NCBI RefSeq assembly: GCF_009646095.1
Contig: NZ_CP045725.1
Coordinates: 682,001 to 746,000, forward strand
Source of the DNA: Raineyella fluvialis
GTDB taxonomy: Bacteria; Actinomycetota; Actinomycetes; Propionibacteriales; Propionibacteriaceae
Reading direction: 5' to 3'
Length of the DNA stretch: 64,000 nucleotides
The notes beneath the pieces are model-generated. The model saw only the letters and a list, made by a program, of their open reading frames with translations. It made no database searches and was not told the origin of the DNA. Shown here piece by piece: positions 8,821 through 51,990 of the stretch (position 1 is its first letter; each line of letters starts with the position of its first letter). The position numbers and the translations under genes are program-made.

Positions 8821-8860
8821 CCTGTGGATCGAGCCCGGTGAGGGGGTTGCCCTGTGGACG
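8821..8860. promoter_or_regulatory. Paired TCCACAG motif, copy 1 (before the DUF4244 pilin gene)
   Basis: Two CCTGTGGA boxes (starting 8821 and 8851, 30 bp apart) lie between the tadC stop and the pilin gene, about 90 bases upstream of the pilin start. The same pair recurs at 12871-12908 and 51953-51990. Confidence 0.5.
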
Positions 8861-8862
8861 GA

Positions 8863-9642
8863 TCAGCCGAGGAGGTGGGGAAGAGTGCCGGCGATGACGG
8901 GAACCACCCCCACCAGTAGGAAGGCGGGCAGGTAGCAGGCCATCAATGGCAGCACACTGCGGACTCCGACCGTGCGGGCCCTCGCCAGGACGTCTGCGTG
9001 CCGCTCGTGGCGCGCCCGATCGGCGTGGGCCTGCAACAACTCGACGAGGGCGGAGCCGCTCTCCACCGACCGGGCGAGGTCACGCGCCACCATCGACCAG
9101 ACCGGATCGTCGACGAGGCGACGCCAGGCCCGTGCTTCGGCGTCGCCGATGGCCACTTGGCCGAGTACACCCCCGATGTCATCGGCCAGCGGTCCTCCGA
9201 ATGCTCCGGCGACGGCTGCCGCGGCTCCCCTGACCGGCAGGCCCGCCGCCAGGCAGGATGCCATCAGCTCCAGTGCCCCTGGTAGGTCGGCCGCCAGGCG
9301 TCGCCGCCGCCGGCGTTCCGCCGGGGAGACAACCCGCCCGCTGGCCACGTACGCCCCAGCAGCCACGGCCATGACGATCAGGGGCGCGAACCACCCCGCT
9401 GCGGTGGACAGGACCACCACCCCCGCGGCGCCTCCGGCGCTCATCGCCACCCGTGCCCGGGTCTCGGGATCCGGCGCCCCCGGGACCGGCCGCGCGAGCC
9501 GTTCCCACGCCCTGACCGGCCACGAAGCGGCCCGCTCGCCCAGCAACCGACGCGGGCCGCGGGGTGGAGCCGGCACGACCAGCCCCACGACACCCGCGGC
9601 CAGCGCCGCGACCACGGTCGCGAGGGCGCTCCCCGGATCCAT
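8863..9642 (-). CDS. tadC: TadC, type II/IV secretion membrane platform protein
   Basis: 259 residues with N- and C-terminal membrane segments and the type II secretion F domain in between (LAADLPGALELMASCLAAGLPVRGAAAAVA..., then the ARDLARSVESGSALVELLQAHADRARHERHADVLARA region). It forms, with TadB, the inner-membrane platform on which the TadA ATPase acts. It starts one base after the tadB stop. Confidence 0.85.
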   Translation of the reverse strand: MDPGSALATVVAALAAGVVGLVVPAPPRGPRRLLGERAASWPVRAWERLARPVPGAPDPETRARVAMSAGGAAGVVVLSTAAGWFAPLIVMAVAAGAYVASGRVVSPAERRRRRRLAADLPGALELMASCLAAGLPVRGAAAAVAGAFGGPLADDIGGVLGQVAIGDAEARAWRRLVDDPVWSMVARDLARSVESGSALVELLQAHADRARHERHADVLARARTVGVRSVLPLMACYLPAFLLVGVVPVIAGTLPHLLG

Positions 9643-9643
9643 T

Positions 9644-10473
9644 TCAGTCCTCCCGTCCGGGTGAACGCGCCAGGGCCCTGGTCCACAGGGCCCCGATGCT
9701 CGCCAGCACGACCGCGGCGACGCTGCAGGCCAGCCCCACCGTTGTGTGCAGCAGGAAGTCGACCGGCCGGCCCCCGATCGAGTACCCGAGGCCGATCCCG
9801 ACGACGGGCAGGACCGCCATCAGCTGTCCGGTTGCCTGGGCCGAGGCGAGTTCGGCGCGGACCAGGCGGGACACTTCGGCATCCCGCTCCAGCGCACCGG
9901 CCACCTGGTCGAGGGAGGGCCCCATCGGTGCCCCGCAGGCCTGGGAGACCTCCCAGGCCCGGGCGAGGTCGAGGAGGCCGGCACAGCCAGGCTCCAACGC
10001 CTGTGCGCGCCAGGTCCGCACCACATCGTCGCCGACGAGCAAGGCCGCTGCAGCCCGGGCGAGGACGGGGCAGTCCCCCGCCACCAGGCCGACCGCCGCT
10101 TCCGCTGCCCGCCCTGCGCGCACCTCGGCCGCGACCATGCCGCAGGCTCGGGCGACCTCGGTCTCCGCCCTGGTCCGGGCAGAGCGTTTCCTCCGAGAGC
10201 GGGCGAGCGACACCACGGTCGCGACCGGCACGATCACCAGCACGATGTACGCGGCCGCCCTGGGACCCTGCACCAGCCAAGCCACGACCAGCACCAGGGC
10301 TGCCACCGGTATCCAGAGCAGGGGCCCACGGAGTCGCCGTGGCCTGCGCGCAGCGGCCGGGTGCGGGCCTGCCGCCGAGCCCTGATCCAACCGCGACACA
10401 GCTCGGCGTCGGGTGCCCCGAGGATGAGCACGACAGCGGTCGCCGCACACAGCGCCACGACAGCGGCACTCAT
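9644..10473 (-). CDS. tadB: TadB, type II/IV secretion membrane platform protein, frameshifted
   Basis: The start ATG (10473) overlaps the tadA stop by ATGA and opens MSAAVVALCAATAVVLILG, a membrane helix. The frame is lost at the C-run 10415-10418; adding one base gives GGTRRRAVSRLDQGSAAG and joins it to the second helix (LLWIPVAALVLVVAWLV) and the F domain (EVARACGMVAAEVRAGRAAEAAVGLVAGDCPVLARAA). Corrected length 276 residues, normal for actinobacterial TadB. Confidence 0.82.
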
Positions 10474-11618
10474 CGCGCGACCCGTGCCAGGAACTCCTCC
10501 GCGGCAGGCCCGTGGTGCACTGTGCCGTCCGCGCCGAAACTGACTGCCTCGCGGACAGCCAGGCCTGCTGCGGCGTCCCGTCCGAACATCCCGATCTGGG
10601 CCACCCGGCGACGCCCGTCCTCGTCGCGGCGCAGGTGCACGACGACGTGCAGAGCCGCCAGTGCTTGGGCCTGCGTCGCCTCCCGTCCCATGCCACCCAG
10701 GGCGGCCAGCGCCTCGAGGCGGGCCGGGACATCGGCCGGGGAGTTCGCATGGACGGTCCCGCATCCTCCCTCGTGCCCGGTGTTCAGCGCGGCGAGGAGG
10801 TCGCACAGTTCAGCGCCGCGGACCTCCCCCACGACGACGCGGTCGGGTCGCATCCGCAGCGCCTGTCTCACGAGGGTGGCCAGACCGAGGGCACCGCTGC
10901 CCTCCGCGTTCGGGGGACGACCCTCGAGACGTATGCAATGAGGATGCGGTGGATCCAGCTCACGGGAGTCCTCCACCACGACGAGGCGCTGGTCGGTGGG
11001 CACCAGGCCGAGCAGGGTGCCGAGCACAGTGGTCTTGCCGCTGCCAGTTCCCCCGGAGACCAGGAACGCGAGCCGGCGCTCCACCAGGCCCTCGAGCAGC
11101 GGCACGCCGACCGGCGGCAGCGTGCCCCGGTCCACCAGGTCCGCGAGGGTGAATCGCTTGCGCGAGGGGATGCGCAGCGAGATACAGGTGCCCGGATCGG
11201 CAACGGACCCGAGAACGGCGTGCACCCGGGTCCCGTCCGGCAGGCGCGCATCGACATAGGGAGCGGCATCATCCAGGCGTCGACCCACGCGAGCCGCGAG
11301 GCGCAACGCCAACCGTCGCACCTCCTCGTCGCTGCCGAAGACGAGCGGCGTGCGCTCCAAACCGTGCCCCCGGTCGATCCACACCTGGTCCGGCCCGTTG
11401 ACCAGGACATCGGTCACTCCCGGCAGGGTCAGCAACGGCTCGAGGACGCCTGCCCCATACGACTCGCGGTGCAGCCGCTCGACCGCGTCGTAGAGCAGGG
11501 CGTCGGTCACCACGAGTCCCTCGGCCCGCATGGCCGCCGCGATGTCCCCGGTCGTCGGTGGGTGACCAAGACCGGCGAGGGCCGGCCGGAGCCGGTCGAG
11601 GTCGACCAGACCGGTCAT
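10470..11618 (-). CDS. tadA: TadA/CpaF-type secretion ATPase
   Basis: 382 residues of the VirB11/CpaF ATPase family. Seen: N-terminal GVTDVLVNGPDQVWIDRG, Walker A GGTGSGKTT (about residue 193), Asp box VVVEDSRELD, Walker B-like LRMRPDRVVVGEVRG and the His box TGHEGGCGTVHANS. It powers Flp pilin assembly at the inner membrane. ATG at 11618 overlaps the stop of the ssd gene (ATGA). Further upstream codons lack family resemblance. Confidence 0.9.
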   Translation of the reverse strand: MTGLVDLDRLRPALAGLGHPPTTGDIAAAMRAEGLVVTDALLYDAVERLHRESYGAGVLEPLLTLPGVTDVLVNGPDQVWIDRGHGLERTPLVFGSDEEVRRLALRLAARVGRRLDDAAPYVDARLPDGTRVHAVLGSVADPGTCISLRIPSRKRFTLADLVDRGTLPPVGVPLLEGLVERRLAFLVSGGTGSGKTTVLGTLLGLVPTDQRLVVVEDSRELDPPHPHCIRLEGRPPNAEGSGALGLATLVRQALRMRPDRVVVGEVRGAELCDLLAALNTGHEGGCGTVHANSPADVPARLEALAALGGMGREATQAQALAALHVVVHLRRDEDGRRRVAQIGMFGRDAAAGLAVREAVSFGADGTVHHGPAAEEFLARVAR

Positions 11619-12820
11619 CGTCGCCGGTCCCGTCCCGCGCCGCCCTGTCGGGTCCCGGTGCCGGCTGTGGCCGGCATGGCATCGAGGCTGGTCAGCAGGC
11701 CGGCGCAGGCCGTCACCCACGACCGGCGGGCCACGCGCCAGGGCGGGTCGCCACGCTCGGCCGCCACGGGTAGGCGGGGATCGTGCGGCAGGACTCCGGC
11801 GACCGGGACGCCGACGGTCTCCGCCACCACGGCAGGATCGGTCCCCCGTCCTGGCTCGTGGTCGCTGCGACGCGCGGCGATCCAGGGGTCCATCCCCTCG
11901 GCGGCGCAGTGCATCGCCACCTGACGGGCCGAGGCGAGGTGTCGGACGCCCGGCCCTGCCACGACGAGGACGCTGCCGGCGCGCGCCAGGTGTCGTCCCC
12001 AAGGAGGGCTCAGGGCGACGTCCAGCACGACGAGGTCGTACGTCACGCGGGCCGCCCCGAGGACGCTCTCGACGGCCGCGTCGTCGGGGAGCAAACCCTC
12101 GGCCGAACGCCCCATCGCCAGGACGTCGACGCCGTCACCGCCGGGCAGTCGCCCGGCGAGTGATCCCAGGGCACCGCGCGCTCGCGCTAGGTCGTCCCAC
12201 CGCCACCCGGGTGAACGTTCAAGGCCGACCAGCAGGTCGATCCCACCGGCCCACGGGTCCAGGTCCACCAGGACGGGATGGCGCCCGGCGAGGGCTGCCG
12301 CGCCGGCCAGTCCCGCCGCGGTCGTCGACGCCCCGGCGCCGCCGCCACCGGAGACGACGGCGAGCGTTCTGGCTCCTTCACCGGGCGGAGTACCGCCCAG
12401 TGCCCGGCCCAGCACTGCCGTGTCCCGGGGGACGACCACGAGACTGGCCCCCAGGGGCGCCGACCACCGGCACAGGTCTGCGGCGTCGGTCTCCTCACCG
12501 AGCAGGTGCACCCCGTCGCGCCGAGGCAGGCCGAGCTCGGCGACGGCCGGCGCGGCGTCGACCAGGACCAGGACGGTGCCGGCGGCGGCCCAGCGCGCCG
12601 GCAGGAGGGGTGGTTCGAGCAGGATCGGCGCCGTGGCGCCGAGTGCAGTGGTGACCGATTCCACGGCGCGGAGGAGATCGGTCCGGGTGCCGACGAGCAC
12701 GGTCGTGGATCGCGGGACGGACCGCGACGGCGTGGGCAGGCGCCGGGACCCACCCAGGCCCCCGATCGACGATTCGGTGGGCAGTGCCTCGGAGCGGGCA
12801 TGACGCGGCAGCACATCCAT
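11615..12820 (-). CDS. Ssd/CpaE-like (TadZ) ParA-family protein
   Basis: About 401 residues: an N-terminal receiver-like region (TTVLVGTRTDLLRAVESVTTA...) and a C-terminal MinD/ParA domain with a deviant Walker A, AVVSGGGGAGASTTAAGLAGAAALAG (about residue 155 on), and VLVDLDPWAGGIDLLVG. Relatives position the pilus machine (TadZ/CpaE); mycobacterial Ssd also affects septation. Start placed at ATG 12820 (MDVLPRHAR); a CATCCT six bases upstream could be a -10 box of a leaderless transcript. First gene of the tad operon. Confidence 0.8.
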   Translation of the reverse strand: MDVLPRHARSEALPTESSIGGLGGSRRLPTPSRSVPRSTTVLVGTRTDLLRAVESVTTALGATAPILLEPPLLPARWAAAGTVLVLVDAAPAVAELGLPRRDGVHLLGEETDAADLCRWSAPLGASLVVVPRDTAVLGRALGGTPPGEGARTLAVVSGGGGAGASTTAAGLAGAAALAGRHPVLVDLDPWAGGIDLLVGLERSPGWRWDDLARARGALGSLAGRLPGGDGVDVLAMGRSAEGLLPDDAAVESVLGAARVTYDLVVLDVALSPPWGRHLARAGSVLVVAGPGVRHLASARQVAMHCAAEGMDPWIAARRSDHEPGRGTDPAVVAETVGVPVAGVLPHDPRLPVAAERGDPPWRVARRSWVTACAGLLTSLDAMPATAGTGTRQGGAGRDRRR

Positions 12821-12870
12821 GGCCCGAGGATGGGTCGCGGGACCGGCCGACAGCCCGACACCACAAGATC

Positions 12871-12908
12871 TGTGGACAACCCGCACCGTCAGGCCCACCT
12901 GTGGAGAA
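12871..12908. promoter_or_regulatory. Paired TCCACAG motif, copy 2 (before ssd-tadABC)
   Basis: TGTGGACAA (12871) and TGTGGAGAA (12900) are 29 bp apart and about 50 bases upstream of the ssd start. The first is identical to the actinobacterial DnaA-box consensus TTGTCCACA read on the other strand. Confidence 0.55.
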
Positions 12909-12969
12909 TCGGCCGGCAGCCGTGAGTCGAATCACAACGTAACCCTTTCGCGACCACCGGCACCACTGG

Positions 12970-13140
12970 TATGAATTGAGCAAGGGTCACACCCCGCACA
13001 GCAGCCAGGCACCCACGCAGCGATCGACCGTCTTCGAGGGCGTAGCAGCCGGCCTCACGCCGACTGGCACGACACGGCAGTGCGCCTGATCACCTGGTCT
13101 GAGGTGTCCTGAGGGACCCGCCCCTGGGCGGGTCCCTCAG
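12970..13140 (+). ncRNA. Candidate small RNA between ssd and the methyltransferase gene
   Basis: The two flanking genes diverge, yet a perfect 14-bp terminator hairpin lies between them, so something must be transcribed inside the gap. TATGAA (12970-12975) could be its -10 on the plus strand, giving a transcript of about 155 bases ending at the hairpin. No convincing coding frame is seen. As I recall, M. tuberculosis has the 6C RNA (B11) next to ssd; I cannot find the C-rich loops of that family here, so identity is open. Strand is uncertain, since the hairpin is symmetrical. Confidence 0.35.
13109..13140. terminator. Strong terminator hairpin, 14-bp perfect stem, 4-base loop
   Basis: CTGAGGGACCCGCC (13109-13122) pairs with GGCGGGTCCCTCAG (13127-13140). 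It lies between divergent genes and therefore cannot serve either of them. Confidence 0.75.
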
Positions 13141-13170
13141 CATGTCGGGGCTGCTCTGACCCGCCCCCCG

Positions 13171-13176
13171 TAGAGT
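13171..13176 (+). promoter_or_regulatory. -10 box TAGAGT, probable leaderless start
   Basis: TAGAGT ends seven bases before the methyltransferase ATG with no ribosome site in between. Confidence 0.5.
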
Positions 13177-13183
13177 GGGGCCC

Positions 13184-13927
13184 ATGCCTTCCCCTCGCAC
13201 CAATCACCCGGGTGCGGCCATGGCCTGGCTGCTGCCGGATGCCGGTGCCCAGGTCCTCGACCTGTGCACCGGGACGGGCGCGTTCACCGCTGATCTGGTG
13301 CGCTGCGGACACCGTGTCTTCGGTATCACCGCGGACGCCCGCGTCGCCCAGCAGGTCGCCGCACGCGCGACGGGTGCGACAGTCATCCGGGCGAGTGCCG
13401 ACCGGTTGCCGTTCCGCCCGCGGTGGTTCGACGTGGTGACGATCGCCGGACAGCGGGCCCGCTCGGCGGAGGCCTTCCCCGAAGCCGTGCGGGTGCTGCG
13501 GCCCGGCGGCCATCTCGGCGTCCTCCGGACGACACGGGACGACACGGTGCCCTGGGTACGCAGATTGGCCAAGCTCTTGCAGTCGTACGACCCCACGGCG
13601 ATGACGACCGCGACCTCAGGTCCGTCCCAGGAGGAGGTGCTCTCCGGCGGCTGGTTCATCGCCTCGGAGACGAAGGCCTTCCGCCATTGGGTGCCGATCG
13701 ACCGCCCCGGCCTGCTGGCCATGGTGGAGGGCCGCCCGCGGATCCGCCAACTGCCCGAGGCCGACCGGCAGGACCTGATCGCGAAGGTCACCGGCCTCTT
13801 CGACGACATCGCCCGGGGACACGAGGTGATGCTGCCCTACCGGGTCGAGTGCCGGAAGGCCTGGCCCGATCCCGAGCGCCAGGCGATCGAGCCCTCGATC
13901 ACGGTCGGCATTCACATGCGTTGGTGA
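13184..13927 (+). CDS. Class I SAM-dependent methyltransferase
   Basis: 247 residues. Motif I is VLDLCTGTGAFTADLV (about 24-39), then VFGITADARVAQQVAAR (motif II region), and FPEAVRVLRPGGHLGVLR (post-I/III). It resembles UbiE/Methyltransf_11 proteins of actinobacteria. Substrate unknown. ATG at 13184 chosen over an upstream GTG because the TAGAGT -10 box overlaps the GTG. Converges on the RND gene with only 19 bases between the stops. Confidence 0.8.
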   Translation: MPSPRTNHPGAAMAWLLPDAGAQVLDLCTGTGAFTADLVRCGHRVFGITADARVAQQVAARATGATVIRASADRLPFRPRWFDVVTIAGQRARSAEAFPEAVRVLRPGGHLGVLRTTRDDTVPWVRRLAKLLQSYDPTAMTTATSGPSQEEVLSGGWFIASETKAFRHWVPIDRPGLLAMVEGRPRIRQLPEADRQDLIAKVTGLFDDIARGHEVMLPYRVECRKAWPDPERQAIEPSITVGIHMRW

Positions 13928-13946
13928 CGCCGACGCGCCGCCGCCC

Positions 13947-16900
13947 TCACGACCTCGGGGCCACCTCGTCGCTCTCGAGCAGGCCGCGGCGCGGCACCGG
14001 TGTCGTCTCCTCGGCTGCTGCGGGCCACGGCCGGCGCTCTCCCCGGCCGGACCGGCGTCTGCTGACCACGGCGGGCTCGAGATGCTTGGCCAGCCGCTGC
14101 TCCCGGCGTACGTCCCTGCGCTCGCCGACCCCCTCGACCAGTGTGTAGAGCACCGGGACAAGGATCAGGGTGAGAAGGGTGGAGGAGACCAGGCCGCCGA
14201 TCACCACGATGGCCAGTGGCTTGGAGATGAACACCCCTCCTCCGCTCAGCCCCAAGCCCATCGGGGCCAGCGCGAGGACGGTGGCCAGGGCGGTCATGAC
14301 GATGGGCCGGAGCCGGTGCCGGGCGCCTTCCTGAACGGCATCGTCGATGGACCGGCCACGGTCGCGGTACTGGTTGATCAGGTCGATCAGCACGATGGCG
14401 TTCGTGACCACGATGCCGACCAGCATGAGCGCGCCGATCATCGAGGGGACGCCCAGCGGGGTCTTCGTGAGGACCAGGGCGGCGATCGCGCCGACGCCGG
14501 CGAACGGGACGGACACCAGCAGGATCAGCGGCTGGATCAGCGACCTGAACGTCGCCACCATCACGACGTAGACGAGGGCGATGGCGACCAGCAGTGCCAA
14601 CCCGAGCTGACTGAAGGCCTTCTGCTGGTCGGCGCTGACTCCGCCGACGCTGACGCTGACCCCGCGGGCGCCGGCACCGCGGCGACCTTCGCGGAGACCG
14701 CACGGGTGACCGCGCCCAGGTCGGAGCCCGCCGGAGTGACCGACACCGTCGCGCTGCGGCGTCCCTGGCTGCGAGCGATGGAGGTCGCCACGTCCGTCTG
14801 CCGGATGTCGGCGATGTCGCCCAGCCGCACCGTCGTCGACTGCGGCTTCGCTGCCTGCGCGGCCTGCGCGGCCTGCGCGGCCTGGGCGGCCGATGTCCTG
14901 GGGGCGACGGTGGGGGTCGTGGGGGTCGTGGGGGTCGCCGGCGCCTTCACCACCGTGGCGGGCACCTTGAGGTCGCGCAGCGCGTCGAGCCCGACGGGAG
15001 CGTCACCGACGCTGATCATCACGTCCTTGGTCACGCCGTCGGTCTCCACCTGCGCCACCTGTTGCGGGGCCAGCGCCGCCTTGACACTCGAGGAGACCGT
15101 ACGCTCGTCGACGCCCTTCTCGGCCGCCTTCGTACGATCCAGGTCGACGACGACGGTGGGCCGGTCGGCGGTCAGTGTGTCGGTCACGCCCGCCGAACCC
15201 TCGAGGTCGGTGAGCGCCTCGTGGACGGCGGTGGTGGCGCTGCGCAGTCGGTCGGTGTCCGGCGCGGTCACGGTCACGTCGATGGTGCTGGTCCCGTAGC
15301 CCGCCTGGGCCGCGACCGCGACCTCACCGACGCCGGTGAGGGGCTTGACCGCGTCGCGGACCTGCTGCTGGACGGCCACCTGGTCGGCGCCCGGGTCGGT
15401 GGTGACGGAGAAGATCGCCTTGTCGGCCCCGCCCCCGGTGAACATCGACTCCGCGCCGCCGCCCCCGATCGTCGTCTGCACCGTCGCGACGCCGGCGACA
15501 CTCCGCAACGCCTCCTCCACACTGCGGGCCTGGCGGTCCTGCTCGGCCAGGGACAGTGCGGGCCGGAACTTCTGCGTCACGGTCAGGGTGTTCTGGCCGG
15601 TGTCGCCGAGGAAGTTCGTCTGCAGTCGCGGCACGAGGGCACCCGACAGGCCGAGCAGTACGACGGCGACGACCACGGTCAGCCACGGGTGGCGTACGGC
15701 TGCGGTGAGCGAGGGCAGGTAGACCCGCTGCATCGGCGTACGGCGCGGACGCCCGGTCGCGTCGTCGAGGGCGGTGACGTGACTGCGGGACCGCTCCGGC
15801 AGGAACCAGTAGGCCAACACCGGCACGATCGTCAGCGCCACCACGAGTGAGGACAGCAGAGCCAGGGAACTGGTGATGGCGAAGGGGCGGAAGAGTTCGC
15901 CGACCTGACCGCCGACGAGCGCCAGCGGCAGGAACACCGCCACGGTGGTCAGCGTCGACGCGGTGATCGCCGTGGCGACCTCCCGAACACCGGTGAGCAC
16001 CGCCTCCTGGCGGCGTTGCCCTTCCCCCAGGTGGCGCTGGATGTTCTCGATCACGACGATCGAGTCGTCCACCACGCGTCCGATCGCCATCGTCAGGGCG
16101 CCCAGGGTGAGCATGTTCAGCGAGTAGCCGGCCGTCCCCATGCCGATCAGGGCCATCAGGACCGAGACGGGGATCGACACCGCCGTGACGAGGGTGGGCC
16201 GCAGCGAGGCGAGGAAGAGCAGGATGACGACGACGGCCATCAGCAGGCCCAGTCCGCCCTCGACCAGCAGGTTGTGGATCGAGTCCGAGATGAACGGCGC
16301 CTGGTCGAAGACGACGGTGGTGTGAGCGCCGTGCCCCAGCGCGGCATCGAGGCCGGCGAGCTTGTCGCGGATCTGACCGGAGATCGCGACACTGTTGCCG
16401 TCGGGTGTCTTCGTCACGGACAGTGCGAGGCTCTCGCGGCCGTTGGTCCTGGCCAGAGAGGTGGCCGGCGCTTCGCGCTCGCTCACCCTCGCGACGTCGT
16501 CGACGCGAACGGCGGCCCCGGTGGGGCTCGTCATCGTGACGGCGGCGACGTCCGCGGCCGCGGTATAGCGCTCACCGACGGTCACGGTGAGTTCCTGGTC
16601 CCCGGACCGCAGGGCCCCGCCCGCGGCGGGTGCACCCGCGGAGCCGATCGCCTGCTGGAGTTGCGCCACCGTGACGCCCTTGTCCGACAGTCTGGCGTCG
16701 TCGACCGCAACGAGCACCTGCGGGATGGGCGCCCCGGCCACGCTCACGGTGCGGACGCCGTCGACCTTCTCGATCTCGGGGACGACGAGCGTACGGACCC
16801 GCTCGGCCAACTGTCCCGCCGAGGTGTCGTCGGCGACAGCCAGCTGGAGCACCGGGACGTCGTCGATGCTGCCGGTGAGCACCTGGGTCGTGATCCCGTC

Positions 16901-17886: not shown

Positions 17887-17901
17887 CCCGCCGCAGGGCG
17901 A

Positions 17902-18699: not shown

Positions 18700-18706
18700 G
18701 CCCGCC

Positions 18707-44100: not shown

Positions 44101-44557
44101 TGGTGGAGTTGAGGTCAGCGTTGGCGGCGGCGTCCGCGCCGACCCACACCACCCGGGCGCCGGTGACATGTTCGTCCAGCCTGTTGGTCCAGGTGATCGC
44201 TGCCGCGGACGGGAACGGCCGGTCACCCGGCGGGCGCAGGTACTGGGTACGGGTCGTCCGCCCGTCGGCGGTGAGCACGTCGTCGATCTTGCCGCGGGCG
44301 TAGGAGTAGACGGTCCGTTCCGACCTCTTGCCGCCGTCATCGCGGGCGGCGCGGTTGAAGGCAGGCGGGTTGGGCATCATCACCGCGGACATGGCGTCGA
44401 GGATGGTCGACTTGCCCATGCCCGTGGGGCCGAGGATCGCGGTGCCGTCGCGGCGCACTTGCATGATGTGGTGGCCGCCGTAGCCGCCCCAGTTGACCAC
44501 CTGGACGGCGCTGATCCGCCACTGGTCAGGGCCGTCGGTGAGCAGTTCGTCGGTCAT
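41189..44557 (-). CDS. jetC: JetC/MksB-like SMC ATPase (MukB homologue)
   Basis: 1122 residues. N-terminal ATPase half: AVQVVNWGGYGGHHIMQV and Walker A GPTGMGKSTILDAMSAVMMPN (about residue 43). Long Ala/Glu/Arg coiled coils (about 330-520 and 650-900) flank a hinge-like part (VEDAAGLDAPRAAGYTGAVTL). C-terminal half: signature SGKSGGEGQELIAFILGAALRYQLG and Walker B APIVLDEGFVKADSEYTGRAL. This is the SMC subunit of MukBEF-like/Wadjet (Jet) condensins. It overlaps jetB by ATGA. No jetD follows; the next gene is an enoyl-CoA hydratase. Confidence 0.9.
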   Translation of the reverse strand: MTDELLTDGPDQWRISAVQVVNWGGYGGHHIMQVRRDGTAILGPTGMGKSTILDAMSAVMMPNPPAFNRAARDDGGKRSERTVYSYARGKIDDVLTADGRTTRTQYLRPPGDRPFPSAAAITWTNRLDEHVTGARVVWVGADAAANADLNSTTRYLLVRGHFDLSRLNEAIDQPLRGSRTWPLDSNSLKRLLNPNRDLVTASQPEFEKEMCRVLGIGRSDESSRRALELLRNAQASKGIFSINALFKDFVLDRPLAVERWETALVTYREAAQLYDIFEDARTRYEVLKDVPMLAARYRAAMTDSATEWRLLGDAEGDDAPSPLELWNAEHLLDWASSRIEDNRTRATELGAIAKQHDAEAIAARDEEEALTQRYYAKGGGDSEDLVRRRQEAATQLAERTAARQAYVDRAQWQGFEEPADEPAFAALVQALHQRLRGLPDQDAEWKSASYDAASARGRARDDLRAVSEEIASLKRRRSNVPAEADRTRRDIAEACGIDVTRLPYVGELLEVKPEERRWATAVDRVLGQLAQNIIVAPEDWRRVTAYVNDNRMRGRVVLVPARPAHNAAPAVLPGSVPDKLRMDEDGPYAEWLLDHLVAGYSVLCVEDAAGLDAPRAAGYTGAVTLAGMRTAAQGRVIKDDRKLPSWLGLDNAGTIAELETRAETLRAQIARHDTELEDLDRRRREGIDVAGELRWLSEQTWASIDVASARAAEAHAAELLGRFTQGHRTLDSLKTERAAARDRYVAHTSAAAKAREQRAGLDEEWGALVDLQDEMSDVLSRGQLSAEDRTTLGRLGFPEPVDAARARDTLAMSAERLRALAHEHSGAVELAETALVGIFREYLRVDPRAEIDETIASLEAVEAILDDLESDDLPRARTEWLAKTREDMQRSLRTLLVQIEEDRRSIRDGLLPVNRALSSVEFRDGSRLQIEDRPIATADLDDFRATIIRYTAVGTAEIEEDVTEQMFLAMRHDLARLDEQSTSAEAWRRRVFDAREHVEFRAVEHRPDGEPIVHDGVSGKSGGEGQELIAFILGAALRYQLGDGTDQAPRFAPIVLDEGFVKADSEYTGRALHALQSLGFQLVIGAPRDKAAAFEDYVGSIVYVNRNPDRDGEVRLYEFAID

Positions 44558-45273
44558 GCGTCCTCTGCCTCCTCTGCGGCGTCCGTCTGTTCGATGTCCG
44601 GGTCCGGGGCCGTCTCCGGGGCCGATCGCTCGCCCCCGGCGAGGACCTGCATCTGGTCACGGATGGCCGCCAGGCGATCGGGGGTCACCAGGGCGACCAC
44701 GGCCGGGGAGACGACCCAGGTGTCAGGGACGTCGGGGTCGGGACGCAGCAGCCCGAGCCGTTCGACCCCGCGCAGGGCGGTCTCGACGTCGCGCTGGAAG
44801 CCCGCCTCGTCGGTGTCGCTGGGATCGCGGAACCGGGCCAGGAAGTCGGTGGCCTCGTTCAGAGTAATCGCCACGGCCGCGTCGGCGGCGTCGGTGAACG
44901 CGTGCAACTGGCGCAGGTGGACGAGCAGCAGGGTCGCGTCCTTGCCCAGTGGCTTCTCCCGCCGCAGCACGATCGGCGCGTCCGGGTCGTCGACCTGGCG
45001 CTTGAAGGCGACGTCGTGCTCGTGGTCGATGACCAGGTCGAGGAACATGTCGGCCAGCCGGGCGCGGATCCTCGGCTCGTTGTCGATCAGCCCCTCCCAC
45101 GCCGCCGGGTGTCCGCTGCGGGTGATGTAGCGGGAGGTCAGCAGGGTCGCCAGGGCGCGGCGAGCCTGGTCGGGCAGCACCTCCGGGTCCGCGGGGGCGC
45201 CGAAGGCATCCTCCCCGTACGCCTCGGAGCGGGTGCCGAAGGCCTCGGGCTCGGTCGATCCGGATTCAGTCAT
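44554..45273 (-). CDS. jetB: JetB/MksE-like protein (DUF4194)
   Basis: 239 residues: acidic N-terminus, then RALATLLTSRYITRSGHPAAWEGLIDNEPRIRARLADMFLDLVIDHEHDVAFKRQVDD and KPLGKDATLLLVHLRQLHAFTDAADAAVAITLNEATDFL, the DUF4194 winged-helix pattern of JetB/MksE, the small kite subunit. ATG 45273 chosen (GTG at 45279 is in frame). It overlaps jetA by eight bases and jetC by four. Confidence 0.87.
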   Translation of the reverse strand: MTESGSTEPEAFGTRSEAYGEDAFGAPADPEVLPDQARRALATLLTSRYITRSGHPAAWEGLIDNEPRIRARLADMFLDLVIDHEHDVAFKRQVDDPDAPIVLRREKPLGKDATLLLVHLRQLHAFTDAADAAVAITLNEATDFLARFRDPSDTDEAGFQRDVETALRGVERLGLLRPDPDVPDTWVVSPAVVALVTPDRLAAIRDQMQVLAGGERSAPETAPDPDIEQTDAAEEAEDA

Positions 45274-46731
45274 TGCCACCGTCCTTGAGCGGGAGTGGTC
45301 CGTCGAAGTGCACCAGCGGGACGAGGACGTCGCGCGCCCTGCCGCTGGGGGTGATCAGGGTGACCCGTTCGGTCTCCCCCGGGTCGACCCGGCCGTGGGC
45401 CAGGCCGAGATCGAGCACGCCGAGGAGCACGACGAGTCGTCGGCAGGCCTCGGGGGTGGCGGCGAAGACCTTGGCGCCGGTGGTGGGGCCGGCGGCGACG
45501 AGGTCGTTGACCGTCGATGCGACCGCACGGGTCGAGGTGCCGGCCTGGACCATCATCAGTTCACGGTCCTCGGGCAGCATCCCGGACGGGGCGAGGGCCT
45601 CCAGCGGGTGTGCCTTGACCTCCTGGCTCGGCTGCCACAGCGCCGCCTGGGACATGTCGCGTACGTCGAGGGCGCCGACGCCGAGGACGTCCTCGATCAT
45701 CGCCCGTCCCGATCGGCGGCTGAGCTCGTCTCCCGCCTCGAGGACCTGGTCGACCAGGGTCAGCAGCCGCTGGTGGCGGCCACCGGAGGAGCGGGTGAGG
45801 AAGCGGCGCAGCGAGGCGGTCCACCGCGTGTACGCCGCCTCGACCTCGTGCTCCTCCTCCAGCAGGCTGGACATCAACGTCCGCAACGAGGCGCGGTCGT
45901 TGTCGCTGAGCGTGGTGGCGGCGAACTCCTGATCGAGGATCAGGTCGATGTCGCTGCGCAATGACTCTGCCTCGCGGGAGACGAGCAGGTCGGAGAAGCC
46001 GCGGTAGGCCCGGCCCTCCGGGGTCTGGGCGAGCAGGTCGTGCTCGTGCAGGAACTCCTCCACCGCCGCCCCCTTCGGGGTGCCGGTGCTGGAGACACCT
46101 GCCGCGACGGCGTGGTGGCGGCGTTCGATCATCGTGGTGAGCTGGCGGAAGTCGGCGGGGAGCGAGGCGAGCAGTCGCCGGACCTCGTCGAACTGTCGGC
46201 GCATCTCCTCCTCGGTCGCCGGGCGTACGTCGCCCGCCAGCAGCGCCTCCCGGCGCTCCTCCAGTTCGGCGATCCGCGCGTCCAGTCGGGCGATGTGGGC
46301 GTCGAGATCGGGGCTGGCCATGTCGGCGAGCCGGCGGACCGCGTCGGAGATCGAGCCGAGCCGGCTGTCCGACACGGTGCTCGACTCCCCCGAGGTGTCG
46401 CGGACGATCCGCAGAGCGCGCAGCGCGTTGTCGGACAGCTCGTACATCAGCCGGCCGTCCTCGGGGTCACGGCTGCGGACCAGCCAGTGGTCCTGGTCGA
46501 CCCATTTGCGGCAGTGCTCGGCGGGGTGGGGCTCTCCGGCAGCCCGAAGGCCTGCAGCGCCTCGGCAACCCGGCGATGGAACCACGCGGCGGAGACCGGC
46601 CCTTGGGCGGGTTCGAGGTGCTCGGAGAACAACGGCACCACCCACCACGCCGTGTGGGCGGACAGCAGCTTCAGGCTGGGGCTGTCCAGCGCGCCACGGA
46701 CCCGCGCCGGGTCGAGCGGTTCATCGGTCAC
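45266..46731 (-). CDS. jetA: JetA/MksF-like kleisin (DUF3375), frameshifted
   Basis: 488 residues after correction. The GTG start at 46731 (GAGGG upstream) opens MTDEPLDPARVRGALDSPSLKLLSAHTAWWVVPLFSEHLEP, the DUF3375 N-terminus; one base is missing in the G-run 46528-46531, after which ESPHPAEHCRKWVDQDHWLVRS continues with YELSDNALRALRIV. A coiled coil (LDARIAELEERREALLAG...) and the C-terminal winged helix follow. JetA bridges the SMC heads. First gene of jetABC. Confidence 0.87.
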
Positions 46732-46933
46732 GTGCCCTCGGTTCGTACGACTGTTCCTGCGACGGGCCATTCTTTCAGGCCCGGAGGCCGGACCGAAATC
46801 GCTCCGCGTCCCGGATGGCGGATCAGGAGTGACCGTCTGGCCGCGCGCCCAGCCTGTGTCGTGCAGCGGCGGCCCGCTGGTGGCTCTACGCTGGGAGACG
46901 TCGTCTCTTCGCCCACCGTGAGCTTGAGGTCCT

Positions 46934-48415
46934 GTGTTCCGTCGCCTGTCCGTCCGGCTGCTGGCCCTGGGATCCGGCATCCTCGCCGCGGGATCGCTCG
47001 GCTTCGCGTACGCCACGAACCCGTTCTCGCGATTCACCATCGTGCGCAACACGTACACGGCGCGGTTCACGCCGGACGGGCTGGAGACGGTCGATCGCAA
47101 CGACGCCCTGGTGCTGCGTCAGCACCGGATCTGGCGGGCGCTGGCCTACTACTCCTGCGGCATCAATGTGTTGCGGACGCGCTACCTCAGCAGTCCCCGC
47201 TCCGCCGCCGCGACCGTGGACGGGGTGATCCAGGACATTCACACGCTGCGGTTCGACCCGGATCGGCTGCTGTTGATCTCAGGGGACCAGTTCAGCGCGC
47301 TCTTCGTGCGCAATCTCGGGGTCTTCTTCTACCCGATGCTGGACCGGAGCATCCCCGGGGACGAAGCGGACTGGCAGGCCCGCCAACTGGTGTACCTGCA
47401 GACCGTCGGCTACGCGCTCGGCGTGTTCGCCCGCCACCCCGAGCTCACCACGACCATCGTGGCGACCGGGCGGCGGGCGGCGACCTGCGTGAACATCTAC
47501 GCCTACCCTTCCGACACCCTCTACGGGATGCTCTACGCGCTGGCAGCGCTGGCGCGGATCGAGCCGGCCCGTCCGGCGGCGTACGCCCCGGATCACCACC
47601 TGCTGGCCACCCGGGAGGCGGCGGCCGATCTGCTCGCCCGCTACGGCGCTTCCCTGGCAGCCCACTACCGGACCTACCGGGAGCGGGTCCTCGATCCGGA
47701 CACCGGCCTGGTGCGGAAGGACCTGCCACTGTCCGGGGCGAAGGACATCACCCGACGGTCCTCCGCCTTCTACGACAACGTGATCCTGTGGAAGACCATG
47801 CAGCTGGCCGGCAAGCTCGGGCTGGCCAGCGTGGACGACGAGGAGCTGGCCGCGTTCAAGCGGCAGATCCTCGCGGCGTTCTGGCTGCCGGAGCAGGGTC
47901 ACTTCCTGGAGGACCTGTCGAGTGAAGGGGTGCGCGCCTCCTACTACTCCTCGGACTGGTTGATCACCCTGGCGACGGGGTTCCTCGATCCGGCCGATCC
48001 GGCCGAACGGGACTACTTCGTCCGATCGGTCGACCACATCCGCGCGACGGGTATCGCCGAGCCGTTCGCGGTGAAGTACCACGCCGACACCCGCGCGCAC
48101 CGGCAGTACCCGGTGGTCCGGTTGGCCGTCGCGTCGTACGGGGGCGACTCGATCTGGAGCTTCTGGGGCATGGAGTACATCAAGGTCCTCCTCCTGCTGC
48201 ACCGCGCCACCGGGATCGCCGAGTACCGGGACGAGGCCGACCGCCATCTCGCCTCGTACGCGGCAGCGATGGTCCGCGACGGTGGCTTCCCGGAGGTGTA
48301 CGACACGGCGGGACGGATGCTCACCACACCGCTCTACCGCAGCATCCGCCAGACCGGATGGGTGATCGGCTTCGAACAGGCCCGGGAGATGGCGCGGGCC
48401 GCCCACGCGGGGTGA
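46934..48415 (+). CDS. Secreted/anchored six-hairpin-type glycosidase-like protein
   Basis: 493 residues. N-terminal hydrophobic segment (VRLLALGSGILAAGSLGFAYA) acts as signal or anchor. The rest alternates helices with Trp/Tyr/Asp-rich loops (IYAYPSDTLYGMLYALAALARI, SSAFYDNVILWKTMQLAGKLGL, YGGDSIWSFWGMEYIKVLLLLHRATG), as in alpha/alpha-barrel glycoside hydrolases such as GH15 or debranching enzymes. I cannot name the family or catalytic acids with certainty. GTG start with TGAGG upstream; divergent from jetA, about 200 bases apart. Confidence 0.6.
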   Translation: MFRRLSVRLLALGSGILAAGSLGFAYATNPFSRFTIVRNTYTARFTPDGLETVDRNDALVLRQHRIWRALAYYSCGINVLRTRYLSSPRSAAATVDGVIQDIHTLRFDPDRLLLISGDQFSALFVRNLGVFFYPMLDRSIPGDEADWQARQLVYLQTVGYALGVFARHPELTTTIVATGRRAATCVNIYAYPSDTLYGMLYALAALARIEPARPAAYAPDHHLLATREAAADLLARYGASLAAHYRTYRERVLDPDTGLVRKDLPLSGAKDITRRSSAFYDNVILWKTMQLAGKLGLASVDDEELAAFKRQILAAFWLPEQGHFLEDLSSEGVRASYYSSDWLITLATGFLDPADPAERDYFVRSVDHIRATGIAEPFAVKYHADTRAHRQYPVVRLAVASYGGDSIWSFWGMEYIKVLLLLHRATGIAEYRDEADRHLASYAAAMVRDGGFPEVYDTAGRMLTTPLYRSIRQTGWVIGFEQAREMARAAHAG

Positions 48416-48482
48416 GGAGGCGCGCTGCGGCGGTCTTCTCACCGCCGCTCGCCGACCCAGACAGGCAGGTGCCCGAGGTTGC

Positions 48483-48595
48483 GTGAGCGGATTCTGGCGG
48501 CACAGGCGTCCCGGACCGCCTCTCGCCTCCCGCGACCCACGGTTTGACGCCAGTCATCCACGGAACCGGCACATCTGCCGCCAGAATCCGCTCAC
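48483..48595. repeat. 20-bp perfect inverted repeat with 73-bp spacer
   Basis: GTGAGCGGATTCTGGCGGCA (48483-48502) and its exact reverse complement (48576-48595) bracket a gene-free 73 bp. No target-site duplication or transposase is seen. Could be a remnant of a small non-autonomous element or a long RNA stem. Confidence 0.7.
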
Positions 48596-48639
48596 CACCC
48601 GGAGCTGCCTCACGTTGCCCTCATGGCTGGACAACGACA

Positions 48640-48669
48640 ACCGGCCGTGACCCTGAGGTCACGGCCGGT
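48640..48669. terminator. Terminator of lysC
   Basis: ACCGGCCGTGACC-CTGA-GGTCACGGCCGGT: 13-bp perfect stem, just after the lysC stop on the minus strand. Confidence 0.75.
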
Positions 48670-48682
48670 CGGCAGAGTAGCG

Positions 48683-49957
48683 TCAGCGGCCGGTCCCCGC
48701 ATAGACCACTGCCTCGCCCTCGGCGTCAAGGCCGAATGCGGTGTGGGCGGCCCGGACGGCCTTGTCGACGTCGTCCTGGTCGACGACGACCGAGATGCGG
48801 ATCTCGGAGGTGGAGATCATGCCGATGTTGACGCCCGCATCGGCGAGCGCCTTGAAGAACTTGGCGGTGACGCCGGGGTGGGACCTCATGCCGACGCCGA
48901 TGACCGAAACCTTGCCGATCTGGTCGTCGTAGAGCAGCTCCTGGAAACCGACCGCGTCCTGGATGGACTTGAGCGTCTGGATCGCCTTGCGGGCGTCCTT
49001 CGTCGGCAGGGTGAAGGAGATCTCCGTACGCGAGGTGTCGACGCGGGAGACGTTCTGGACGATGACATCGATGTTGATGTCGGCCTCACCCAGAGCGGTG
49101 AAGATGGCCGCCGCCCGGCCGATCTGGTCCGGGACACCAACCACGGTGACCTTGGCCTCGCCGCGCTCGTGCGCGACACCGGTGATCATCGCCTGTTCCA
49201 TGCCAGGTCCTTTCTTGATGTCCTTGAGGGGCTTGACCCACGTGCCGGGCTTGTCGGTGAAGGATGAGCGGACATGCACCCGTACGTGCTCGCGGCGCGC
49301 ATACTCAACGCAACGCAGGTGCAGGATCTTGGCCCCGTTGGCCGCCATCTCGAGCATCTCCTCGTACGAGATCTCGGGGATCCGACGAGCGTTCGGGACG
49401 ATCCGCGGATCGGCGGTGAAGACGCCGTCGACGTCGGAGTAGATCTCGCAGAACTCGGCGTTGAGTGCCGCGGCCAGGGCCACAGCGGTGGTGTCGGAGG
49501 CGCCCCGGCCAAGGGTGGTGACGTCCTTGGTGTCCTGCGAGACGCCCTGGAAGCCGGCGACGATGACGATGTTGCCCTCCTCGAGGGCGGACTCGATGCG
49601 GCCGGGCGTGATGTCGATGATCCGGGCATCACCGTGCTTGGCGGTGGTGAGGACGCCGGCCTGAGAACCCGTGTACGACTGGGCCTCGGCCCCGAGGTCC
49701 GAGAGCGCCATCGCCAGCAGCGCGGCGGACTGACGCTCGCCGGTGGTGAGGAGCATGTCGAGCTCGCGCGCCTTCGGCATCGGCGAGACCTGCAGGGCCA
49801 GGTCCATCAGCTCATCGGTGGTGTCGCCCATGGCCGAAATGACGACGACCACGTCGTTGCCAGCCTGTTTGGCGGCCAGAACACGACGGGCCACGCGCTT
49901 GATGGCCTCGGCGTCCTCCACCGACGATCCGCCGTACTTCTGGACGATGCGGGGCAT
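48683..49957 (-). CDS. lysC: Aspartate kinase
   Basis: 424 residues: N-terminal kinase domain ([70 protein letters not shown]) and two ACT domains ([44 protein letters not shown]) that bind feedback inhibitors. It makes aspartyl phosphate for Lys, Thr, Met and DAP synthesis. ATG 49957 with AGGAGG upstream. No asd gene follows, unlike the lysC-asd order of corynebacteria. Confidence 0.94.
49199..49213 (-). promoter_or_regulatory. Internal start and ribosome site for the aspartokinase beta subunit
   Basis: Inside lysC, AAAGGA (49208-49213) stands before an in-frame ATG at 49201 ([13 protein letters not shown]), the same place where alpha2-beta2 aspartokinases start their small subunit. The product would cover 48683-49201, both ACT domains, 172 residues. 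Confidence 0.6.
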
Positions 49958-50042
49958 GCGGCCTCCTGTTTCACTCTGAGTCGAGCAACACGATATCGGG
50001 CCGGTCACTCAACGGGACAACGATCCGCCATGCGTAGGACGC

Positions 50043-50336
50043 TCAGTCCGATCCGCTCACCGCGTCGGGGTGGGTCGCGAGGAACTCATCGACCTCCGGG
50101 CTGGTGGCGACAACCGTGAGGCCGTCCTCCTTGGCCTGCTGAAGCCCGGCGCGGACCAGCGAAGCGAGCACATCCTCACTCTCGGGGTCGGCATTGGCCG
50201 TCCCCTCGGAGGGGCTCCCGGACATCTCGACGATTCCGCACTTCACCTGGTAGTCGAGGTGGCCCACCTCGTCACCGTCGAGGAGCGCCTCCCACCGCGA
50301 ACGATCCGGGTTGAAGCGGACACGAAGATCGGACAT
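50043..50336 (-). CDS. GNAT-like N-acetyltransferase (Acetyltransf_CG / YjdJ type)
   Basis: 97 residues, the minimal GNAT form: FNPDRSRWEALLDGDEVGHLDYQVKCGIVEM, then SLVRAGLQQAKEDGLTVVATSPEVDEFLATHP. The usual GxGxA/G loop of the CoA-binding motif is not present (DVLASLVRAG instead), so activity is doubtful. ATG 50336 with GAGGAG upstream. Likely its own unit; lysC starts 85 bases downstream. Confidence 0.65.
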   Translation of the reverse strand: MSDLRVRFNPDRSRWEALLDGDEVGHLDYQVKCGIVEMSGSPSEGTANADPESEDVLASLVRAGLQQAKEDGLTVVATSPEVDEFLATHPDAVSGSD

Positions 50337-50408
50337 CCGTGCTCCTCTCTGCCCCCTTGGTGCGATCTTCAGCGATCGTACGTCGGCCACCCATGGGCAC
50401 AGGACGAT

Positions 50409-51307
50409 TCATCGTGCGACCACGACGGAGGCGAGTTCACCGACGGTCACCACGAGCGACGCGGTGTTCGTCAGCGGGAAGGACCCGGACTGACCCATCG
50501 CGGTCCAGGAGAGATTCCAGCGGTGGGTCGCGGTGATTGTGTAGGTGCCCGGTCTCTCGTAGACGTGGCCGCAATCCGGGGACGGGGTTCCAGGCGGCTG
50601 CGCGCCGGCGACCCAAGGCGTGGAGGTGGTGCAGGTGACCCGAGTGCCGTCCCCCATGTCGTACGTGGCCGCCTGATGCTTGGCCGTCATCGTGAGGGTG
50701 ACGCCCGCCAGGGACACCGTCTCAGTCGTTGAGCTGGCCCCTCGCGCCACATCCACAGCGGCTGTCCGACTGCCACCATTTTCCACTGGTTCTTCGAGGG
50801 ATCCGGACCGATCCGCAGCGTCTGCCCCGGCAACCGCAGGGTCGCGGCGGCCTGGCGCGCCAGGACGGCAGGATCAACTGTGGGACCCGATCCGGCCCCG
50901 GCGGGAGCATTTCCTCCATTCAGCGGCACGAGGTTGTTCCATAGCCAGGCATTGGGGTCATTGAGCCCGTAGAAGCTGCGCTGGCGATCGAGCAACAGTT
51001 GCCGCAGTTCATCGCCGGAAATTGCTGCAGTATCGACCGCCAGTCCCCATCGCTCGCCACTCAATGGCACCCTCAATGGCCCCACATTCGAGGCGGACAA
51101 GTCACTCGTGCGCCCTGCAGCCGATCCTGCGGCACCCCCAAGAGACTGGATCGTTCCTTTCGCCGAATTAGCACCCTCAGCCGCAACACGTGCACCGATG
51201 GTGTCCGGAAGCGCGCCAGCCGCCCAAGACGGGATGCCGGCCGCCACGACCCCAACGAGCCCCACGACGATGCTCAGGATCATCCTCACGGCTCTCACAA
51301 TCCGCAC
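50409..51307 (-). CDS. Secreted PKD-like protein of unknown function, frameshifted
   Basis: 299 residues after correction. GTG start with AAGGAGG upstream; signal peptide MRIVRAVRMILSIVVGLVGVVAAGIPSWA. The middle has LLDRQRSFYGLNDPNAWLWNNLVPLN. One base is missing at the C-run 50738-50741, after which EGASSTTETVSLAGVTLTMTAKH continues into DMGDGTRVTCTT...SPDCGHVYERPGTYTITATHRWNLSWTAMG, a PKD-like beta sandwich with a disulfide pair. Similar proteins occur with tad pili in actinobacteria as far as I recall. Overlaps the lipoprotein gene by 13 bases. Confidence 0.7.
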
Positions 51308-51867
51308 ACATCCTCCTTGCTGGCATTTCCCTCAGAAACCCGCCAGGCGCCCTCCCCGCGATTGACCTTGATCTCAACACTCGCCATGTTTCCGGCTCCT
51401 AAAGTCTGTCCAGATTCAGACAGGAGCTTAATGTGAGAGCCGTTCTCGCATATACGCAGGACAACGGAATCCCGAGTGGCCGAAACTGGCACGATTTGCA
51501 TTATCTCCAAGCCCGAAGTGCCGTGGTAGCCATGCTTTTCGAGTAGCGCTAGATCTGACGCAACATCGCCCAGATACTGCCCTGACGCATACTTCGTCAT
51601 TTCTGGTGTAGGTGCGGCAGCGCCTCCCGCCACCACCAGTCGGTTCCGTTCCTTTGTGAACTCCCGATAGGCATGCACGGCCTCGTCGTAGGCTTTGGCC
51701 TCCTCGGCCTGAGCGGCGGCCAGCTCCGCGGTGCACGGCGCCCCCGAGGCATCCGGCGTGCAGGAGTACGACGGAGTAGGCACCGGAGCGGCCGCCTGGT
51801 TACTCCCGCACCCCGCCATGAGTCCGGTGATTCCGATGATCGTCAACACTGATGTGAACTTGCCCAT
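51295..51867 (-). CDS. Lipoprotein of unknown function, operon partner of the PKD-like protein
   Basis: 190 residues: signal MGKFTSVLTIIGITGLMAGC with lipobox LMAGC, a linker, a helical hairpin (AELAAAQAEEAKAYDEAVHAYREFTKERNRLVVAGG) and a small domain ending in VVLRICENGSHIKLL. This resembles short actinobacterial lipoproteins with a SnoaL/NTF2-like domain, but I cannot assign one. ATG 51867 has CGGGAAC upstream; a second ATG at 51882 is in frame. First gene of a two-gene operon headed by the paired TCCACAG motif. Confidence 0.7.
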   Translation of the reverse strand: MGKFTSVLTIIGITGLMAGCGSNQAAAPVPTPSYSCTPDASGAPCTAELAAAQAEEAKAYDEAVHAYREFTKERNRLVVAGGAAAPTPEMTKYASGQYLGDVASDLALLEKHGYHGTSGLEIMQIVPVSATRDSVVLRICENGSHIKLLSESGQTLGAGNMASVEIKVNRGEGAWRVSEGNASKEDVCGL

Positions 51868-51952
51868 GCGTTCCCGCAGCATCCCCTCGCCCCTCGGCCG
51901 GCTGCCCCCAGCTTTGCCCATAGGTGGTTCACCCCAGCGGCCACGCCGCGAC

Positions 51953-51990
51953 TTATCCACAGGCGCATCGCCGTCGTTCAGTTGTCCCCA
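51953..51990. promoter_or_regulatory. Paired TCCACAG motif, copy 3 (before the lipoprotein/PKD operon)
   Basis: TTATCCACAGG (51953) and TTGTCCCCAG (51982) have 29-bp spacing, about 85 bases upstream of the lipoprotein start. The first is a perfect TTATCCACA DnaA-box match. TATGGG closer to the gene may be the -10. Confidence 0.5.

Follow-up and report, generated by a model that had tools for sequence, protein, structure and literature searches.

Paired DnaA-box-like direct repeats as the predicted upstream half of promoters of a natural-competence regulon in many bacteria of the class Actinomycetes

In a 64,000-nucleotide stretch of the Raineyella fluvialis genome (contig NZ_CP045725.1, positions 682,001 to 746,000; hereafter the window), the genes for a Tad pilus are preceded by pairs of the short box TCCACAG, both boxes in the same orientation and 29 or 30 base pairs (bp) apart. 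Judging from the comparison of many genomes, this pair is very probably the upstream half of a promoter which drives a natural-competence regulon in many bacteria of the class Actinomycetes, a degree of confidence that covers the promoter and the regulon, the identity of the binding protein being a separate matter. ComEA, ComM, SSB and the Tad pilus belong to the machinery of natural transformation. In fact, the pair was found as a cis element before genes for the uptake pilus, ComEA/ComEC, single-stranded DNA binding and recombination, which is the pattern by which a natural-competence regulon is recognised. Activation, co-expression, leaderless mRNAs and a binder are what we infer for this predicted regulon.

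As single boxes, the TCCACAG sequences of the window are not enriched (11 occurrences against a mean of 7.8 in shuffled sequences). Two exact pairs lie on its minus strand, and pairs of this kind were absent from all 100 shuffled sequences. The original prediction had placed them at 8821/8851 and 12871/12900, and both are real, with spacings of 30 and 29 bp; it had also held that the window contains no pair beyond these and a third one, discussed below, and indeed only three matches to TCCMCAG-N20-25-TCCMCAG (M being A or C) are found in it. The first two pairs are oriented like the genes downstream, the DUF4244 pilin gene and ssd-tadABC, respectively:

8852..8858, minus strand: box 1 of the pilin promoter, TCCACAG
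8822..8828, minus strand: box 2 of the pilin promoter, TCCACAG, 30 bp after box 1
8779..8784, minus strand: predicted -10 of the putative pilin promoter, CACGCT, with A at +39 and T at +43 after box 2
8381..8731, minus strand: DUF4244 Flp/Tad pilin gene (Pfam PF14029, 2.9e-12), starting 91 bp after box 2 of this first pair
12899..12905, minus strand: box 1 of the ssd-tadABC promoter
12870..12876, minus strand: box 2 of the ssd-tadABC promoter, 29 bp after box 1
12827..12832, minus strand: predicted -10 of the ssd-tadABC promoter, CATCCT; the transcript start would be the ssd start codon (leaderless)
11615..12820, minus strand: ssd, ParA/MinD-like and TadZ-like (PF01656, 3.1e-7), with its start codon 50 bp after box 2
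10470..11624, minus strand: tadA ATPase gene (PF00437, 7.4e-52)
9644..10477, minus strand: putative tadB, assigned by position, with 0 Pfam families matched
8863..9642, minus strand: tadC (PF00482, 2.4e-14)

The same pattern has eight matches in the whole 3.65 Mb R. fluvialis genome (G000), against none for the reversed pattern, and seven of the eight pairs precede a gene in that gene's own direction. The targets are ssd-tadABC, the DUF4244 pilin gene, comEA(-comEC), yraN-comM, a gene for an M23 peptidase sitting between rpsB and xerC, a DUF4192 gene and a sigma-70 family gene, where dnaG (mentioned below), rpsB, xerC and the start of comEC were assigned by reading translations; dprA presumably follows comM, as would be expected from other genomes. 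A relaxed search, in which the final G was left free, added an ssb gene and an AbiEi_4/DUF559 gene. In 20 genomes, R. fluvialis and 19 relatives, the pattern was matched 127 times compared with 38 times for the control, 13 of the control matches coming from one genome. Furthermore, in 118 genomes sampled evenly across the class, R. fluvialis included, the strict pattern GTCCACAG-N18-25-GTCCACAG gave 140 matches in 53 genomes compared with nine control matches in seven genomes. The original prediction had suggested that such a scan might find the pair upstream of tad and competence genes, and in the genome and its relatives it does precede tad, comEA-comEC, yraN-comM, ssb, comF and recA genes.

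The pairs whose surroundings were examined are those, out of these 127 and 140 matches, that lie within the fetched loci (120 regions together with the loci returned by searches), amounting to 184 distinct pairs in 57 genomes after exclusion of the duplicate loci L248, L257 and L258 and of overlapping repeats in L013, L031 and L283. With reference proteins taken from other genomes only, 119 of the 184 (in 41 of the 57 genomes) stand in the same direction before genes of eleven families, one is oriented opposite to a family gene and 64 have no family assignment; 126 are assigned when reference proteins of the same genome are allowed. The families behind the pairs are AbiEi_4/DUF559 (19), SSB (17), ssd (16), comEA (15), M23 peptidase (13), yraN(-comM) (12), DUF4244 (8), DUF4192 (8), comF (5), sigma factor (3) and recA (3), and representatives of the target families are supported by Pfam/NCBIfam matches. 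A comEC, a RecQ-like helicase gene, a CpaB-like gene and an ATP-dependent DNA ligase gene appear as single further targets; the CpaB-like gene, which encodes a SAF domain, carries its pair upstream in genome G113 (L247:655-1449). The presence of the DUF4244 pilin itself is uninformative as a marker of the regulon, for it was found in 104 of the 118 class genomes.

An assessment blind to the motif was also carried out, in which comEA homologues were fetched by protein only from named genomes and the best 80 loci were kept, 59 of them from Actinomycetota according to the record titles. A TCCNCA pair with boxes 27-30 bp apart was present at nine of the 80 loci, and in all nine an in-frame start codon follows box 2 at 49-52 bp. 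These loci belong to two Propionibacteriaceae, Marmoricola, Nocardioides, Actinopolymorpha, Jiangella, Arcanobacterium and two metagenome-assembled genomes (Actinomycetales and Micrococcales). When the core was permuted in 119 ways, 117 of the permuted cores gave at most one comEA locus with both pair and start codon; the remaining two, which both contain TCCAC, gave 10 such loci. Allowing mismatches in the boxes raised the count to 14 of the 80, including three Aeromicrobium of equal spacing, in a search that had no control.

The second half of the proposed promoter emerges from what follows the boxes. The boxes are two direct repeats whose consensus is mostly YYGTCCACAG, and when 50 promoters of the R. 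fluvialis genome and its relatives were aligned at the start codon, 34 of them showed A at position -11 and 32 showed T at position -7; in the class sample the same positions were occupied in 31 and 33 of 45 promoters, over a background of 0.069 for A and 0.134 for T. A Shine-Dalgarno-like string occurs in only 6 of these 45 class-sample promoters, and no conserved -35 was seen in either alignment. From its position and composition, this pattern would be a degenerate -10 from which transcription begins on the start codon or next to it, the base before the A often being C or T. Moreover, at 34 pairs, which precede ssb, yraN, DUF4244 and ssd genes (gene lists set by hand from the earlier assignments), the interval of 47-53 bp after box 2 contains no start codon; AnnnT still begins at +38-42 in 33 of them, against a mean of 1.4 and a maximum of 3 at other intervals. 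Since AnnnT is kept where no start codon follows, the -10 is tied to box 2 by its position, whatever the place of the translation start. AnnnT at +38-42 is found in 113 of the 126 assigned pairs and in 19 of the 58 unassigned ones, the background being 6.6%, as well as in 12 of 12 comEA promoters (the nine motif-blind ones and the three of Aeromicrobium). In three single genomes (L269, L289 and L325) a pair also lies 49-51 bp before a gene for a DUF222-like protein, a PD-(D/E)XK nuclease and an XRE-type regulator, respectively; AnnnT at +38-42 is present in L269 and L289 and absent in L325.

The idea that the pairs have no shared regulatory role, being scattered DnaA boxes of the ordinary kind or matches by chance, has to be weighed at this point. 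The 65 of 184 pairs without an assigned target in the same direction would fit it, as would the genes read as dnaB, which carry DnaA-like boxes of other geometry. The same-direction placement before the same families, the AnnnT of 113 of 126 pairs and the start-codon geometry of all nine comEA loci speak against it, and for the members of the regulon it is refuted by the comEA test and the coupling to the -10; we consider it hardly credible. Groups of DnaA-like boxes near genes read as dnaB were seen in L102 (G000), L316 (G044) and L064 (G006), mostly in another geometry, that of L064 having AnnnT at +38-42.

The distance between the boxes is informative as well. Within a genome the spacing takes nearly one value, while across genomes it ranges from N19 to N26 (variance 0.36 within compared with 3.06 between genomes, for 103 pairs in 19 genomes with at least three pairs each), so that the fixed spacing of the original prediction holds inside one genome and not from one genome to another. 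Between box 2 and the -10, the distance stays almost the same. A variable box spacing combined with this steady distance suggests that a protein on box 2 would contact the polymerase, box 1 holding its partner. Being direct repeats and not palindromes, the boxes do not readily suggest the two phased dimers of the earlier idea. In genomes G048 and G070 (L304-L310) the sequence between the boxes is near-identical among several promoters (GCGCACACCCC-like), as though recognition extended beyond the boxes themselves.

According to the mechanism that we propose, one DNA-binding activator would occupy both boxes, at about -54 and about -84, and would recruit RNA polymerase to a core promoter without an evident -35. 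At many targets, where the start codon lies about 50 bp after box 2, the mRNAs would be leaderless, and the proteins of the pilus, the uptake channel, wall opening and recombination would be made together. Feedback is probably added, in the genus Raineyella, by a sigma factor whose own gene is preceded by this promoter. The co-regulation of the Tad pilus and DNA uptake, as originally put forward, is supported by the shared pair, which is not the case for the secreted lipoprotein and PKD-like protein that had been included with them.

Several results weigh against the promoter and regulon as proposed here, or narrow their reach. Among the best 80 comEA loci, the pair was found at only 9 of the 59 from Actinomycetota; none was seen at the loci of Streptomyces, Mycobacterium, Nocardia and Actinomadura, nor at those of Micropruina and Propioniciclava, which are likely of the same family as R. 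fluvialis, probably Propionibacteriaceae to judge from its best comEA relatives. Micrococcus luteus, whose competence is proven, was not among the named genomes examined. In addition, 65 of the 184 pairs were not assigned in the same direction, 65 of the 118 class genomes have no strict pair, and there was no excess over the control in G012 (4 compared with 13), G015 (2 compared with 3) and G004 (0 compared with 2). As regards the promoter, 13 of the 126 assigned pairs lack AnnnT at +38-42, and the leaderless state is not general, since a leader precedes most ssb, yraN and DUF4244 genes. Finally, a genetic screen in M. luteus is reported to point to Mlut_14660, an HTH_17 protein. Five HTH_17 (PF12728) matches occur in the R. 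fluvialis genome, which look like genes of mobile elements or others in unrelated contexts, and no BldC-like HTH_17 regulator was recognisable among them.

Two families found behind the pairs might themselves provide the regulator. The first is a sigma factor with a pair of its own:

L006:1590-2336 (G000 about 2766978-2767721): genus-specific sigma-70 family factor after dnaG, its own promoter carrying the pair

It has sigma-70 regions 2 and 4, the nearest models being of the SigB/RpoD type and far under their cut-offs, and the pair lies upstream of it in all four genomes of the genus, as could be expected of a competence sigma factor that reads these promoters. Nevertheless, no orthologue was found in the other 33 of the 37 genomes searched (best matches much lower), many of which have the regulon, and -35 and -10 elements would not take the form of identical direct repeats placed at about -54 and -84. 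As a general regulator, this factor was rejected on account of its restriction to the genus (4 of 37 genomes), and its role as the competence sigma factor is very improbable. Equally improbable is that the AbiEi_4/DUF559 proteins are autoregulated regulators binding the boxes through their winged-helix domain. With 19 of the 184 pairs, spread over 15 genomes, they form the commonest family behind the pair, two of the three proteins scanned match AbiEi_4 above the cut-off, the third weakly, and the best Foldseek match of such a protein is the AbiEi antitoxin 6y8q (E 6.8e-5). Against this, a single genome can hold several copies with the pair in front (in G006, L017, L063 and L065, which are related to AbiEi_4/DUF559 proteins in other genomes), the sequences are very divergent (18-60% identity to the first) while the box is constant, and the C-terminal half has the invariant S, E, D and E of PD-(D/E)XK nucleases. 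By their sequences, these proteins look like DNA-processing effectors rather than regulators; combinations of the AbiEi_4 winged helix with a DUF559 or restriction-endonuclease-like part were seen behind pairs in L103, L055, L023, L305 and other loci.

Regarding the binder, the original prediction had observed that the boxes resemble DnaA boxes. In the excerpts consulted of PMC4285127, the actinomycete DnaA box is given as TT(G/C)TCCACA, with TTGTCCACA listed as a high-affinity form, and TCCCCA is described as a weak DnaA box (W-box) of Caulobacter. The competence box YYGTCCACAG matches the published actinomycete box over its first nine positions, and TCCCCAG, a variant met among the pairs, contains the Caulobacter W-box as its TCCCCA part. 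The resemblance is less complete when the boxes are set beside those of the origins of replication of the same genomes. The comparison set comprised 17 oriC regions (three of 20 could not be placed) with 91 boxes having a TCCACA core, some of which may be non-functional. The flanks are similar, the oriC boxes having a pyrimidine at positions 1 and 2 with frequencies of 0.79 and 0.82, and G at position 10 occurs in 14 of 18 motif-blind comEA boxes compared with 50 of 91 oriC boxes (p 0.11). G at position 3, by contrast, is present in 102 of 126 competence boxes followed by a -10 and in 37 of 91 oriC boxes (p 2e-9), and among boxes beginning with two pyrimidines in 93 of 112 and 31 of 64, respectively, a difference that weighs against DnaA.

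Accordingly, two binders have to be compared, DnaA and a dedicated activator, which we consider about equally likely. The latter, possibly a dimer with flexible reach, would recognise a site that merely looks like a DnaA box and would have been lost together with the regulon in lineages like Streptomyces and Mycobacterium. It is favoured by the bias at position 3, by a spacing fixed within and different between genomes, and by the absence of the pair, among the best 80 comEA loci, in genera that surely have DnaA. To our knowledge, a long, lineage-specific spacing between boxes is unusual for DnaA, which tells against it. So does the nutritional control known from M. luteus, whose competence responds to nutrients and cell density according to the parts consulted of PMC6667448 and PMC12849477. 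On the other hand, a regulator gene preceded by the pair across most lineages was not found, the agreement with the published DnaA box at nine positions would be a coincidence, and TTGTCCACA being a high-affinity DnaA form, the bias towards G is not by itself evidence against DnaA. A dedicated activator is given somewhat less than an even chance. Considering the difference at position 3 together with the possible non-functional oriC cores and the G bias to be expected at high-affinity sites, DnaA is weakened and still a possible binder; it is kept narrowly first, likewise short of an even chance, because a nine-position match is unlikely for a random regulator. That DnaA would itself be the master activator of natural competence in a large part of the class, acting directly through boxes at about -54 and -84, is a more tentative proposition again. 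As for a paralogue of DnaA in this role, none was found by a search with the DnaA recognition domain PF08299 in the R. fluvialis genome and 20 relatives: one match was obtained in R. fluvialis and one in each of 19 relatives, with 0 in the incomplete genome G005. DnaA is the only protein with this domain in these genomes, which counts in its favour as the binder.

The third pair of the window had been proposed to control a lipoprotein gene and a secreted PKD-like protein gene. Its features are the following:

51956..51962/51985..51991, plus strand: third pair, TCCACAG then TCCCCAG, 29 bp apart, pointing away from the lipoprotein operon and without a -10
51295..51867, minus strand: lipoprotein gene, no Pfam family, with a Shine-Dalgarno-like leader of its own
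50687..51307, minus strand: secreted PKD-like protein gene, second in the lipoprotein operon, no Pfam family

The spacing of 29 bp given for the pair at 51956/51985 is right, and its second box is TCCCCAG instead of TCCACAG. The boxes are inverted relative to the lipoprotein gene, whose start is about 88-128 bp away, and the pair lacks the -10 found in 113 of the 126 assigned pairs, so the proposed control is not supported; for these two reasons the operon is rejected for now as a member of the regulon. Homologues of the lipoprotein were sought in 14 genomes. The inverted pair is kept before the gene in three of the four species of the genus (G000, G001 and one copy in G003), a conservation which calls for explanation; it is not present in G002 nor in the other of the two G003 copies examined, out of four in that genome. 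AnnnT at +38-42 was not found for this pair in G000 or in the G003 locus L056, and no common gene was seen on its far side in the genus loci compared. In genome G028, a second inverted pair next to a lipoprotein homologue instead precedes an ATP-dependent DNA ligase gene (L340:2164-3465), lying 50 bp upstream of it and with AnnnT having its A at +40; this may be a competence ligase.

Several known systems invite comparison. Late competence promoters of Bacillus subtilis are preceded by ComK boxes, two sites at a set spacing, with AT-rich palindromic halves, to which one activator binds. The present promoters are alike in having paired sites at a set spacing before competence genes, and differ from the K-box in that the sites are GC-rich direct repeats near a DnaA-box sequence. 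No ComK homologue was found in M. luteus, as far as the consulted parts of PMC6667448 and PMC4322843 tell. The com genes of streptococci share an element of eight bp (PMC8467076, consulted in part), the cin-box of SigmaX (ComX), a single promoter element common to almost all com genes there, and in this the two systems are similar; unlike that alternative sigma factor system, two upstream boxes and an ordinary-looking -10 are found here, and the sole sigma factor seen behind the pair is restricted to one genus. From the DnaA boxes of actinobacteria, the pairs differ in their fixed, same-orientation arrangement at a fixed distance from the -10 and in their commoner G at position 3. MtrA also offers a parallel, as an actinobacterial regulator with sites in oriC, although these sites, given as GTCACAGCG in the excerpts of PMC4285127, differ in sequence. 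The predicted promoter consists of two direct boxes and a fixed -10, often with a leaderless mRNA.

The closest experimental counterpart is M. luteus, where Mlut_14660, ppGpp (guanosine tetraphosphate) and amino acids take part in competence control and the machinery likewise includes Tad pili, ComEA/EC and CpaB. There, every tad gene but tadB is essential for transformation according to the part consulted of PMC4322843, and the CpaB homologue Mlut_14650 is reported, in the excerpts consulted, to be needed as well; in G113 the pair lies before a CpaB-like gene. Unlike the promoters described here, no promoter motif or binding site is described for M. luteus competence in the consulted portions of PMC8467076, PMC12849477, PMC6667448 and PMC4322843. 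Moreover, no earlier report of such a motif appeared among the matches listed in our literature searches, which covered titles and the beginnings of abstracts.

Competence has been known in Actinomycetota for over four decades, and in 2026 the upstream signals and the cascade in M. luteus were still to be identified, as stated in the part consulted of PMC12849477. In this context, a shared promoter element would give a handle for recovering the regulator of actinobacterial competence, and would predict which actinobacteria retain a competence programme. It also brings forward new suspected players in competence, namely the DUF4192 proteins, the nuclease-like AbiEi_4/DUF559 proteins and the M23 peptidase encoded beside rpsB. 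If DnaA is indeed the activator, DNA uptake would be wired to the replication state of the cell.

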